This document shows, piece after piece, positions 2,967-14,829 of a stretch of 26,150 nt of DNA. The notes beneath the pieces were generated by a model, which saw only the letters and a list, made by a program, of their open reading frames with translations, was not told where the DNA came from and ran no database searches. A program made the position numbers and the translations under genes. Position 1 is the stretch's first letter, and the number at the start of each line of letters is the position of its first letter. The DNA is from a virus, in the IMG/VR virus record IMGVR_UViG_3300034121_000214, positions 1 through 26,150 of that record. One strand, given 5' to 3'.

Positions 2967-3224
2967 TCATTCTGCTGCGCGAGCCTCAACTTCATATGGG
3001 TTATTTTGATACCCATAACGCAATAACCAATAGCTGTACTTGACCAAGTAAACCAGCTTGCCATCCCGCTGCATCTGCTCTAGGTGCTTGCGCTCGTGGC
3101 GGATCAGGCCTTGGTGCATCTCGTAGCCGGGGGCAAGGTAAATGCTGCCCCAGAAGCTAGTCCAGCCGTGGAAGCCGCAGAAGCGCATGTACGCGAGGAT
3201 TAGGCCGGTGGCGGTGTGGGTCAT
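2967..3224 (-). CDS. Small HExxH metallopeptidase-like protein (85 aa)
   Basis: The motif HERKH (residues 43-47) fits the zincin HExxH signature, with E44 as the presumed catalytic base. Thirty residues later NPYEVEARAA supplies a Glu (E78 or E80) that could be the third zinc ligand, the pattern of tiny gluzincin-type proteins. The N-terminal half is aromatic and hydrophobic. ATG at 3224-3222 lies 1 nt after the preceding fibre stop codon, so translation is probably coupled; no clear Shine-Dalgarno sequence is seen. The first nine codons are duplicated after the other fibre gene (4854-4828). The protein sits between tail fibre and scaffold genes. A virion or assembly protease or a peptidoglycan-related role are possible, but the substrate is unknown and activity is inferred only from motif spacing. 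Confidence 0.6.
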   Translation of the reverse strand: MTHTATGLILAYMRFCGFHGWTSFWGSIYLAPGYEMHQGLIRHERKHLEQMQRDGKLVYLVKYSYWLLRYGYQNNPYEVEARAAE

Positions 3225-3230
3225 GTTAGA
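3199..3230. repeat. 32-bp direct repeat, copy B
   Basis: Matches 4829-4860 at 31 of 32 positions (mismatch at 3207/4837), with a period of exactly 1630 bp. It covers the fibre stop codon junction and the first nine codons of the HExxH gene. It marks the right end of an inserted fibre gene cassette in transcription order. Confidence 0.92.
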
Positions 3231-4812
3231 AATCGCAAACTAAACGTGCTTCCCATGTAAAGTTATTGGGTGTTGTCCCCGTCCATGTCGCTGTAAAAGT
3301 AGTTGCGCCCATAGCAGTCACCCCGATAGGGCTTGTGTAACCAGCGTTGTATGCAGAGCAGTTAATGACGCTGCCATTTGCCAATGGCGCAGCAGCAAGG
3401 CCGTGAGCAATCGTTGATCCACTTGCAACGCCTGACGCATATCCACTGTTGCGCGACACATACCCATAATTGTTTTTGACAGCATTGCCCGAAAAATTAC
3501 CCGCTTGACCAGTTACCCCTGGGTTAATAGCAGCATTGCCAACCAGCGAGAATCTATTGCCCATCCACAGACCGCCAGACCCGGCGTCGTGCGTGATGTC
3601 TTGGTACGTTGATCCAATAAAAGTGTTGCCGATGTATTTGGCGCCTTGACTGGCAGCTTTGATTCCGATAGTACAACCAACGAATGTATTACCATCAAGG
3701 TAGGTGGCGGCGGGTACACCTGTTGTCACATCTGAAACTCCAACTTCAGCAGCTGCAATTGCCGAATCACGAAGCGTGATAGTTGTGGCCGTGTCTTTTA
3801 TCTCAAGACCTTTTGATCCAACGCGTACTGCACTAAACGCTATCTGCAAGCCAATAAGAGCGCAACCACTCGCCGACCCGTATACCTGAACGCCGATCAA
3901 CCCCGTTGCATTTGTGCCAGCCAGATATGTTTTTCCATAAGTCTTTCCTTGGCTTGAACCAATTACCATCCCTGTTTCAGTAAATCCTTCAAAGTGGCAA
4001 TCGCCAATTGACCAGTTAGTAGCCGCTGGCTGGATGATTAGGCCGCGAACCCCACCATCAGAAATCATTTTCTGACCTTCAAACAACGTGGAGTTAATTA
4101 CAAAGTTGCTTCCAATAAAAGGCCCATTTGAATAGCAATCGTCCAATATACAGCTGTAGCAAGTAGCCGATCCATTGCCAACAACGAAAGAGTTGTTGTA
4201 AACACCAAAAACATTACAACGGCGCAAAACCACATCAGATGCAGTTGTAATAACAAAACCACTACCACCCACATCTACCCCAACACGCCCTTTAATGCAG
4301 ATGTTTTCGCAATACTGACCGCCTGAAATAGTTTTGTTGAAGGTTATTGCGTCGGAGGTGTGCTGCTTATAAATAACCACGCCATAAAGCTGGCTCGTAC
4401 CGGAATTCCATCCTGCTGATTCGCCCAACCAGTTCACATACGCTGGAATAGTGATTCCAGAAAGCGTTAGATAAACACCATTTGGAAACCATAGTGTTCC
4501 CCCTGTTGGTCGTGATGCCAAGTATGTGTTTGCTGCGTTGATGGCCGTTGCGCAATCCAAAGTTCTAGTACCAGCTTGCACATCCGCTATCTGCGCTGCG
4601 GTCATGAAGTCAAAAACACTCACACTCTCCCGCAACTTAGCCTGAACCGTTGTCGAAACAGCGCCTGTACCGGCTGGGAGGTAGCCAACAGCAGCACCAA
4701 ACTGGTTGACGGTTGATTGCTTGGTGACACCACCTTGAACCACTGGAACCAGTTCAGCGCCCGTCAACGGGGTTGTTGCAGAAGTTAGTTGAGAGATTTT
4801 ACTGTTTGCCAT
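3226..4812 (-). CDS. Tail fibre / tailspike with beta-helix body, second copy (528 aa)
   Basis: Probable receptor-binding protein. The N-terminus MANSKISQLTSATTPLTGAE is a widespread phage fibre start that attaches the protein to the virion. A linker GTGAVSTTVQAKLRESVSV (about residues 49-67) is nearly identical to one in the upstream fibre. The body has a GGTLWFPNGVY segment and many short Gly/Asn/Val repeats typical of right-handed parallel beta-helix (pectate-lyase-like) tailspikes. The C-terminal 70 residues form a separate domain starting near NSGYASGVASGSTIAHGL. ATG at 4812-4810 has AAGG about 8 nt upstream. The gene looks more AT-rich than head genes, lies between two copies of a 32-bp repeat, and was therefore probably gained as a cassette. 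Enzyme activity on host glycans is possible but no catalytic residues can be named. Confidence 0.8.
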   Translation of the reverse strand: MANSKISQLTSATTPLTGAELVPVVQGGVTKQSTVNQFGAAVGYLPAGTGAVSTTVQAKLRESVSVFDFMTAAQIADVQAGTRTLDCATAINAANTYLASRPTGGTLWFPNGVYLTLSGITIPAYVNWLGESAGWNSGTSQLYGVVIYKQHTSDAITFNKTISGGQYCENICIKGRVGVDVGGSGFVITTASDVVLRRCNVFGVYNNSFVVGNGSATCYSCILDDCYSNGPFIGSNFVINSTLFEGQKMISDGGVRGLIIQPAATNWSIGDCHFEGFTETGMVIGSSQGKTYGKTYLAGTNATGLIGVQVYGSASGCALIGLQIAFSAVRVGSKGLEIKDTATTITLRDSAIAAAEVGVSDVTTGVPAATYLDGNTFVGCTIGIKAASQGAKYIGNTFIGSTYQDITHDAGSGGLWMGNRFSLVGNAAINPGVTGQAGNFSGNAVKNNYGYVSRNSGYASGVASGSTIAHGLAAAPLANGSVINCSAYNAGYTSPIGVTAMGATTFTATWTGTTPNNFTWEARLVCDF

Positions 4813-4815
4813 AAT

Positions 4816-4854
4816 TTATACCTTGAATATTAGGCCAGTGGCGGTGTGGGTCAT
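4816..4854 (-). pseudogene. 12-codon remnant of the HExxH gene start
   Basis: After the stop codon of the upstream fibre gene, ATG at 4854 opens MTHTATGLIFKV and then TAA at 4818-4816. The first nine residues are identical to those of the intact HExxH gene at 3224, with the same 1-nt spacing to the fibre stop codon. This is best explained as the original gene start left behind when the second fibre cassette was inserted. It may still be translated as a short leader and could help couple translation to the next fibre. Confidence 0.8.
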
Positions 4855-4860
4855 GTTAGA
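4829..4860. repeat. 32-bp direct repeat, copy A
   Basis: Partner of 3199-3230, 31 of 32 identical. It contains the end of the upstream fibre gene (TAA at 4858-4856) and the first nine codons of the HExxH gene remnant. Similarity stops sharply on both sides. Confidence 0.92.
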
Positions 4861-6769
4861 CACCTGTTACCTGCCACCAGCTATCCCATGTTGAAGCATC
4901 AATTGCTTTGCGAAAGTAGAAATCATCTCTATAGGTGGCGTCGTAATCTGGGATAAATTGCTGCCAAATAGCAGTATTTGTAACGCTGGACTGCTTGTGT
5001 GTATACAACATACCCGATTGATTTGCGCCATCAATAGTTCGGTTAGAAAGATGCGTCATGCTCACGCCGTAAACAAATGCGCTTGGCAATGTGGCTTCAT
5101 CTGCACCCGTCGTGTTGTTGAGTGATCCAGTAAAGTCACTTAACCCCGCCCTCATGGTATGCGTAACAAAATCAAATCTGTTGTTTTGAAGGATATTAGT
5201 TACCCCAGTTCCGCTTGGGCTTGAATCTTGAATGGCTCCAGATGAAGGGGCAGCGCCATAAAAATCGTTGTCACGAATGCTTGCGTAAGTGACTGCGCCA
5301 GTGTTTCCAAATCTAATGTGATAGCTTGCGTGAGTAAAAAAAGAGTTTCCACAGATAGCTACATTAGTTGTGGTTTGACTAAACAGAACTCCAAAGTTCC
5401 CCGCATCTCCACCAGTAAATTGGTTTCCACGCACTGTGATATTAGTATCAACCATAGTCACACCAGCAGTTGAAAACCACACACCTCGCAAATGAGTGCT
5501 GATGTTGTTGGCAATACTAATGCCATTCGTATAACCATCACGTTTGTAAACAAAATTGCCAGAAGGGTTGTAGCTGGTATTGCCCTCAATAATTATTCGC
5601 TGTGGCGTTGTTGGTGTAGTTGTTTTCAGGTTCATCACAATGGATGATTCAGTGCCTGCATCTTCAAAGTGATTACCTCGAATAATCACATTTTCAAGGA
5701 GTGCAGTGTTCTGCGTCTGAATACATATATGACCCCTATTTCCGTTGGTATTGTAAAAACGGTTATTTAGAATTCTGATATTTTTTATGCTTTCTACTGC
5801 CGCGTCTGGTTCAAGATCAAGTGAACCCGGCATATCAGATCGGGCGCAATTACGAAATACGCAGGCTTCAACCTCAAGGCCATCAGCATCAATAACAGAC
5901 AAGCCGTTTCTATTGTCGTTATTTACCCCGTCAAACACGCAGTTCTTAACGATCACATCAAAGTTATGGCGCTCCGTTCCTGACCGGCCAGCACCAAGAT
6001 AGAAGCCATCTCCACGGAAACCCTCAAAGTAAACATTGTCAATGCGGCACCGCTTGACGCCTTCAAGTACCAATAAGTGACATTGTTCTTGAAATCCATT
6101 GGCGACTACAGACCCAAGAAACTTCACATCACGAATCACAAGACCTGTGATGTAGGTTGAAGCACTTCCACTATTGGCGCCTAAAGCACCAAGACCAGTT
6201 ACGTTGTACGGAATAATTATTGTTGATTCGCCATCACCATAAAGGTAACTGTTCGTTGGCATATTTAGCAGGTTGGTGGCGTATGTCGCAGCCGGTGCGT
6301 AAACCCGCTTGCCTGTATTAAACGCTGCAAGGAATGCGGCTGAATCGTCAGCAACCCCATCCCCCACGGCTCCAAAGTCTTTGACACTCACACTCTCCCG
6401 CAACTTCGCTTGAACCGTAGTCGCCACGGCTCCGGTGCCTGCCTGCAAGAACCCAACCAAGTTAGACCCGCCAGACGCCGCCAATTGCGCCAAGGTAGCA
6501 AACCCGCCAATGTTGTCTACCGTCCAGATAAGCACATCAGTGGCGCTGTACAAAGCCATCTTGTACAAGGCCGTGCCAAGCCACACAGAAGCCTCGCCAC
6601 GGCTGTCTAGGATGACAGGATTAGCATTGGCAGTCCCACCGCCGTAATCGGTGTAGGTGGCTAATGGCGTGGTTGTACCAGCAGCGTAGGTGTACAGTTT
6701 GCCGCCTACCAACGGCGCACCGTTAGCGTCCAAAAATTGGAGTTTGGGTGGCGTGGCAAGTGCGGTCAT
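4856..6769 (-). CDS. Tailspike / tail fibre with pectate-lyase-like beta-helix (637 aa)
   Basis: Probable receptor-binding tailspike. Residues 1-90 (MTALATPPKLQFLDANGAPL, then GGKLYTYAAGTTTPLATYTD) are a common virion-anchoring head domain. After the linker GTGAVATTVQAKLRESVSV comes KDFGAVGDGVADDSAAFLAA, the signature entry into a pectate-lyase-3 type right-handed beta-helix. Many short beta-helix rungs follow (VIIRGNHFED, ITVRGNQFTGG, IRDNDFYGA). The C-terminal 60 residues (from about IDGANQSGMLYTHK to the end) are a distinct trimerisation or binding domain ending in WDSWWQVTGV. ATG at 6769-6767 with AAGGG 6 nt upstream. Host polysaccharide depolymerisation is plausible for this fold but unproven. 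It shares its linker with the downstream fibre. Confidence 0.85.
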   Translation of the reverse strand: MTALATPPKLQFLDANGAPLVGGKLYTYAAGTTTPLATYTDYGGGTANANPVILDSRGEASVWLGTALYKMALYSATDVLIWTVDNIGGFATLAQLAASGGSNLVGFLQAGTGAVATTVQAKLRESVSVKDFGAVGDGVADDSAAFLAAFNTGKRVYAPAATYATNLLNMPTNSYLYGDGESTIIIPYNVTGLGALGANSGSASTYITGLVIRDVKFLGSVVANGFQEQCHLLVLEGVKRCRIDNVYFEGFRGDGFYLGAGRSGTERHNFDVIVKNCVFDGVNNDNRNGLSVIDADGLEVEACVFRNCARSDMPGSLDLEPDAAVESIKNIRILNNRFYNTNGNRGHICIQTQNTALLENVIIRGNHFEDAGTESSIVMNLKTTTPTTPQRIIIEGNTSYNPSGNFVYKRDGYTNGISIANNISTHLRGVWFSTAGVTMVDTNITVRGNQFTGGDAGNFGVLFSQTTTNVAICGNSFFTHASYHIRFGNTGAVTYASIRDNDFYGAAPSSGAIQDSSPSGTGVTNILQNNRFDFVTHTMRAGLSDFTGSLNNTTGADEATLPSAFVYGVSMTHLSNRTIDGANQSGMLYTHKQSSVTNTAIWQQFIPDYDATYRDDFYFRKAIDASTWDSWWQVTGV

Positions 6770-14610: not shown

Positions 14611-14654
14611 CGACCGCCAGCCGACCGCCGCCCGACCGCCGCCCGACCGCCGCC
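14611..14654. repeat. 11-bp GC-rich tandem repeat x4
   Basis: Four copies of an 11-mer: CGACCGCCAGC (14611-14621), then CGACCGCCGCC three times (14622-14654). It borders the GTG-rich repeat block. The unit is not the same as the 12-bp repeat nearby. Confidence 0.9.
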
Positions 14655-14707: not shown

Positions 14708-14753
14708 GTGTGTGCCATGTGTGCCATTAGGCAGTACGGCACACATGACACAC
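14708..14753. repeat. Long imperfect inverted repeat (hairpin)
   Basis: The left arm 14708-14725 and right arm 14738-14753 are complementary over 16 base pairs with a 2-nt bulge in the left arm; the loop is 12 nt (14726-14737). Arms are built of GTGTG / CATG units. It directly precedes the 12-bp tandem array and ends in a perfect palindrome CACACGTGTG (14749-14758). Confidence 0.85.
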
Positions 14754-14813
14754 GTGTGGGCAGTCGTGTGGGCAGTCGTGTGGGCAGTCGTGTGGGCAGT
14801 CGTGTGGGCAGTG
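14754..14813. repeat. 12-bp tandem repeat x5 (iteron-like)
   Basis: Four perfect copies of GTGTGGGCAGTC (14754-14801) and a fifth differing only in the last base (14802-14813). Extra single copies of the last variant lie at 14658-14669 and 14940-14951. The spacing of 12 bp is slightly more than one helical turn. Regular direct repeats of this type are typical of initiator or regulator binding arrays. Confidence 0.93.
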
Positions 14814-14829
14814 TGTGCCATTGTGTTGG

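Follow-up and report, generated by a model that had tools for sequence, protein, structure and literature searches.

The window, a 26,150-base record of a freshwater phage read here along its minus strand, carries two tailspike genes in a row, followed by a small gene encoding an HExxH protein. The portal is of the P22 type (PF16510, E=9e-178), and the phage is a P22-like podovirus. The nearest portal from a named phage is that of DSL-LC05 (72.5%), whose tailspike genes likewise lie between those for portal and scaffold; an HExxH protein was absent among the two small proteins read there. The features of the locus are listed below.

2967..3224, minus strand: intact HExxH gene, 85 aa (phrog_37302, by PHROG match)
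3199..3230, minus strand: right repeat copy, comprising the end of tailspike 2 and the intact HExxH gene start (sequence comparison)
3226..4812, minus strand: tailspike 2, 528 aa, with a MANSKISQL-type N-terminus, the LRESVSV motif and a beta-helix (PF12708)
4607..4689, minus strand: LRESVSV homology block of tailspike 2, a repeat of the block at 6375-6457
4813..4828, minus strand: 16-nt linker ATTCAAGGTATAAATT, containing AAGG (Shine-Dalgarno-like); 14 of 16 positions are common to contigs L003 and L048 (sequence comparison)
4816..4854, minus strand: scar mini-ORF MTHTATGLIFKV with its stop codon, ending 3 nt before the tailspike 2 ATG (sequence)
4829..4860, minus strand: left repeat copy, comprising the end of tailspike 1 and a 26-nt HExxH gene-start scar (sequence comparison)
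4856..6769, minus strand: tailspike 1, 637 aa, with an N-terminal head-binding domain, the LRESVSV motif and a beta-helix body (PF12708, tailspike PHROGs, 7eeq)
6375..6457, minus strand: LRESVSV homology block of tailspike 1, 83 bp, 76% identical to 4607-4689

The preliminary description had reported a 32-bp repeat on either side of the 528-aa gene, and this was confirmed, with the gene boundaries as it gave them. The two copies are in direct orientation, identical at 31 of 32 positions and spaced 1630 bp apart, and they are the only copies in the whole record (expected number 0, from 100 dinucleotide shuffles). On the minus strand both read TCTAAC-ATGACCCACACCGCCAC(C/T)GGCCTAAT, and the repeat is made up of the stop codon that ends the preceding spike gene, a single base and nucleotides 1-26 of the HExxH gene. 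The right copy continues into the intact 85-aa gene. In the left copy the same codons run, as had been described, into an early stop, which comes after 12 codons, leaving a truncated HExxH gene start, MTHTATGLIFKV, that is referred to here as a scar.

A repeat search of the window found no inverted repeats at the ends of the insert. The insert consists of one spike gene only, flanked by direct repeats, and the features of a transposase or IS insertion were not found; nor was there an inverted pair at the spike ends of the kind used by an invertible Gin/Cin-type fibre switch. No promoter or terminator was predicted on the coding strand between the genes of the block, and Rfam gave no match to an RNA element there. 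The linker alone was considered as a mobile signal and rejected, as away from scar cassettes it matches only unrelated genes. Elsewhere in the window, two neighbouring tandem arrays, 5.5 copies of CGTGTGGGCAGT at 14753-14817 and 4 copies of CGACCGCCGCC at 14611-14654, sit in the region that separates the structural genes on the minus strand from the small genes on the plus strand.

The two genes before the HExxH gene had been called fibre genes. They are better read as beta-helix tailspikes: both the 637-aa and the 528-aa proteins match PF12708 in Pfam, and residues 13-88 of tailspike 1 match the tailspike head-binding domain of 7eeq (E=1.8e-6). Tailspike 2 gave neither a head-binding domain match nor a sequence match in the PDB. 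Its N-terminus differs from that of tailspike 1 and belongs to a family that also heads other spikes; its relatives align mainly over the N-terminal ~130 residues. A search for relatives did not find a donor of the 528-aa body, and among named phages no DNA match to the segment was found.

A search with the HExxH protein yielded 53 viral loci, and H43, E44 and H47 are invariant across the 27 relatives aligned. The sole relative in a named phage, Pseudoalteromonas phage J2-1, is distant (51%). The protein has no match in Pfam or NCBIfam, and its structure model (pLDDT 70.7) had no fold match in the PDB. The only profile match below 1e-3, to 8pjx, covered 30 residues with no stretch passing alone and was discounted. 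Distant relatives (48-52% over 44 residues) were present on two Methylotenera MAG contigs (L236 and L237), the only matches in the genome collection searched, and are a weak hint at hosts.

The relatives carrying the evidence are IMG/VR contigs. The preliminary description had proposed that spike 1 and the HExxH gene were once neighbours and that the second spike came in between them, and had predicted relatives with no 528-aa gene, one repeat copy and an intact spike-HExxH junction. One such relative, L009, was found. It has the same scaffold and capsid genes as the window and the same 637-aa tailspike (97%); an intact HExxH gene comes immediately after this spike, and the repeat is present once. 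Aligned with the window, L009 departs from it precisely at the repeat: the aligned parts overlap by 32 bases, the net difference is 1630 bp, and there is no mismatch in the 60 bases leading up to the junction. A second, independent case is provided by L003, ordered spike 1, scar, spike 2, HExxH gene, and L008, where a homologue of the L003 spike 1 lies directly before an intact HExxH gene. Homology in this pair runs to nucleotide 26 of the scar and resumes 9 nt before the HExxH gene, and the flank of L008 that was retrieved has no similarity to the portal, scaffold or capsid genes of the window. Both one-repeat arrangements support addition of the second spike at this position. A segment lying between direct repeats could also be deleted by recombination between them, and the polarity in any one pair is uncertain because this would recreate the empty site.

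The same joint was found before other spikes. In the window, L003 and L048, the scar and the 16-nt linker are followed by differing, unrelated spike bodies, all with MANSKISQL- or MADTKISAL-type starts. The scar and linker are identical at 57 of 60 positions between L003 and L048 and at 56 of 60 between the window and L003; L003 and L048 are the same over the first 48 nt, where the window differs at three positions. The HExxH gene of L048 starts MIRTASG, not MTHTATG, and the L048 scar therefore cannot have been copied from the junction of L048 itself. L055 represents almost the same phage as L048 (99.7%).

Further HExxH-start scars were found after spikes in L008 (twice), L035, L059, L080, L096 and L223. 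Most scars end within about 20-30 nt of the gene start, while the one in L035 extends to codon 15, and all scar frames close before or at the following start codon. The preliminary description had allowed for a repeat that is common after many unrelated genes, which would speak against its reading, and this is partly the case: the HExxH gene start lies behind the ends of dozens of different spikes and also turns up as a scar in other settings. A second small hydrophobic gene (LQLLKSRT) comes after the scar in L059, L080 and L223, and its own start is present as a scar in L004, L023 and L096. L096 carries two stacked scars: its spike end is followed by an LQLL scar, an HExxH scar and a new spike. 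L004 probably also carries two, a degenerate HExxH-like start (23/29) followed by an LQLL scar, ahead of an intact HExxH gene. These stacks are read as successive replacements on the 3' side of the spike.

In L008 (6584-11960) a 471-aa spike and an intact HExxH gene are followed by a 701-aa spike, a scar reading MTHTATEK and stop, a 488-aa spike and a further MTHTATEK scar. These short scars share the joint GGAGAAATGACATG, with TGACATG at both, and the type was found in this one contig only. Two other observations concern the same region in relatives. In L239 (570-640) a 20-codon remnant, KYTGKRVYAPAATWYQLTGV and stop, follows a relative of the spike 1 end and looks like a second spike reduced by internal deletion. 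L201, L203, L212 and L222 encode, just upstream of the LQLL gene, a further, third small hydrophobic peptide of about 32 aa (for example MTARTIYLRITLALLTFWSTIGLITWQLLHNS), which is possibly another member of the set of small genes after spikes.

The borders of the varying segment were compared in nine relatives of the window's type (L003, L004, L005, L007, L013/L016/L017, which share one spike, L018 and L025; also L022) and in the more distant L040. In these contigs, similarity to the window ends at 6317-6399, shortly past the LRESVSV block of spike 1, and sets in again at 3224-3234, at the HExxH gene start. The flanking DNA is mostly 85-95% identical, and a variable spike segment with fixed borders thus lies inside a conserved backbone. 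Nothing is conserved upstream of about -4 from the HExxH ATG, and synonymous variation within the gene is lowest in the windows that contain codons 2-10 (0.21 vs 0.39), although constraint from translation initiation can also explain the latter. The gene start adjoins spikes also in phages without similar head genes; this border motif is both more conserved in DNA than its surroundings and common to unrelated phages.

The HExxH alleles recombine (p=0.002 in a PHI test of 40 alleles, the minimum attainable with 500 permutations). The HExxH gene differs in every close relative, and the spacer that follows it is 98-100% identical among them; the idea that the allele in the window necessarily came with the inserted spike was dropped as unproven. 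The 6 nt before the two ATGs match within a genome and differ between genomes (TCTAAC at both in the window, AATAAC at both in L003). This agreement favours a right-hand crossover at the recipient's own junction, or a local duplication, over the import of the entire right border.

We consider it probable (roughly 0.72) that the 528-aa gene is a second tailspike carried as a portable cassette and that the HExxH gene start serves as the right border for exchange of tailspike modules between phages. The left end of the cassette would be the 26-nt copy of the HExxH start and the 16-nt linker, while its right end would abut the intact HExxH start. With the HExxH gene start on the right and the LRESVSV block on the left acting as short homology arms, a donor carrying scar, linker and spike may recombine with any phage whose spike ends in the HExxH gene start. 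Where the next gene in the recipient is different, the broken gene start would remain as a scar. The scar itself may have formed once, before the cassette reached this phage, either through an illegitimate join or because a redundant HExxH gene was deleted. Against the cassette, 26-32 bp is short homology, a purely imported right border does not predict the matching 6 nt before both ATGs, and the search for relatives turned up no donor of the 528-aa body.

It is plausible that the second spike is still translated by coupling, since the scar frame ends beside the next start codon and no terminator or promoter was predicted between the genes on the coding strand. Wider host recognition through the second spike appears to be the likeliest benefit. 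A stronger form of the hypothesis, which we regard as possible but doubtful, is that the HExxH start is a dedicated, selected docking element among unrelated phages, and that scars are kept as a mini-ORF with an embedded ribosome-binding site that couples translation of the added spike. L008, with its MTHTATEK scars after two successive spikes, would then be a multi-spike array built by repeated docking.

The preliminary description had favoured a single insertion in the window's lineage, in which a spike gene entered the junction of spike 1 with the HExxH gene and caused a local duplication of that junction. The one-repeat arrangement of L009 agrees with this, as do the matching hexamers before both ATGs, which local duplication would give. 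The claim that this one insertion duplicated the junction was not supported by the comparison with L003 and L048, whose different spikes follow the same scar and linker; L048, where the HExxH start is of another type, weakens it in particular, and we consider a one-off event unlikely.

Alternatively, the scar may be the relic of a lost gene, left when the spike came as a two-gene unit (spike 1, HExxH, spike 2, HExxH) and deletion removed all but the start of the inner, redundant HExxH gene. The order of genes in L008, where an intact HExxH gene stands between the first two spikes and scars follow the next two, and the longer scar of L035 are consistent with this. By itself, however, it leaves the same joint in three phages with different spikes unexplained, and the ends of most scars, near the gene start, are sharper than random deletions would give. 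As a full account it is improbable, but it can hold for the origin of the scar while the cassette explains its spread.

Descent of tailspike 2 from tailspike 1 as an old tandem duplicate, via unequal crossing-over, is very unlikely: both are beta-helix spikes that share the LRESVSV block, but their similarity is limited (about 32% over roughly 215 residues) and the N-terminus of tailspike 2 is of the different MANSKISQL-type family found before other spikes. An artefact of metagenome assembly, with two phages joined at the repeat, is conceivable for an IMG/VR viral contig with a short repeat conserved across phages, but the arrangement of scar, linker and spike also occurs in the separately assembled contigs L003, L048 and L055, which makes this extremely improbable.

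Border motifs around receptor-binding modules and the boundary-sequence model of phage mosaicism are already known. In lytic E. coli phages, conserved DNA motifs flank the sequences coding for receptor-binding domains and were proposed to be recombination hotspots (PMC10408124). As here, short motifs lie on both sides of the variable part of the spike, across taxonomic borders, and one 20-nt motif is found just after the spike gene. That downstream motif is non-coding and a predicted terminator, whereas in the phages examined here it is the coding start of a small gene, which leaves scars that are sometimes stacked. The boundary-sequence model, in which homologous recombination is aimed at short conserved sequences at gene boundaries (reviewed in PMC3233612), likewise involves a short conserved sequence at a gene border. 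Here, in contrast, a second copy of the boundary accompanies an added receptor-binding gene, and the direct repeats that result keep a legible record of gains.

Ackermannviridae have branched complexes of several tailspikes, with conserved N-terminal XD/TD domains as arms (PMC11414711). They share with the present locus spike genes in a row and, on the reading proposed here, a tie between extra spikes and host recognition and exchange of spikes by recombination. The locus described here differs in its P22-like podovirus backbone. Its second spike has no head-binding match and an N-terminus unlike that of spike 1. In the Xanthomonas phages OP1 and Xop411, duplications of tail-fibre domains are flanked by short repeats, which were suggested to aid gain and loss (PMC2248197). 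Short repeats around duplicated fibre parts are common to both situations, but there the domains were duplicated inside one gene, while here a separate spike was added with a gene-start scar. In a brief search of open-licence papers, no description was found of spike gains marked by broken gene starts that recur as scars and can be stacked.

Receptor-binding genes set which bacteria a phage infects, and their exchange is usually inferred from mosaic alignments alone. At this site each gain or swap of a spike can leave a short, readable scar, sometimes stacked on another, and past additions can then be counted and ordered from sequence alone. The finding also touches the long-standing question of whether targeted homology creates module borders or whether they are random joints filtered by selection; both kinds of joint are visible at the HExxH gene start.
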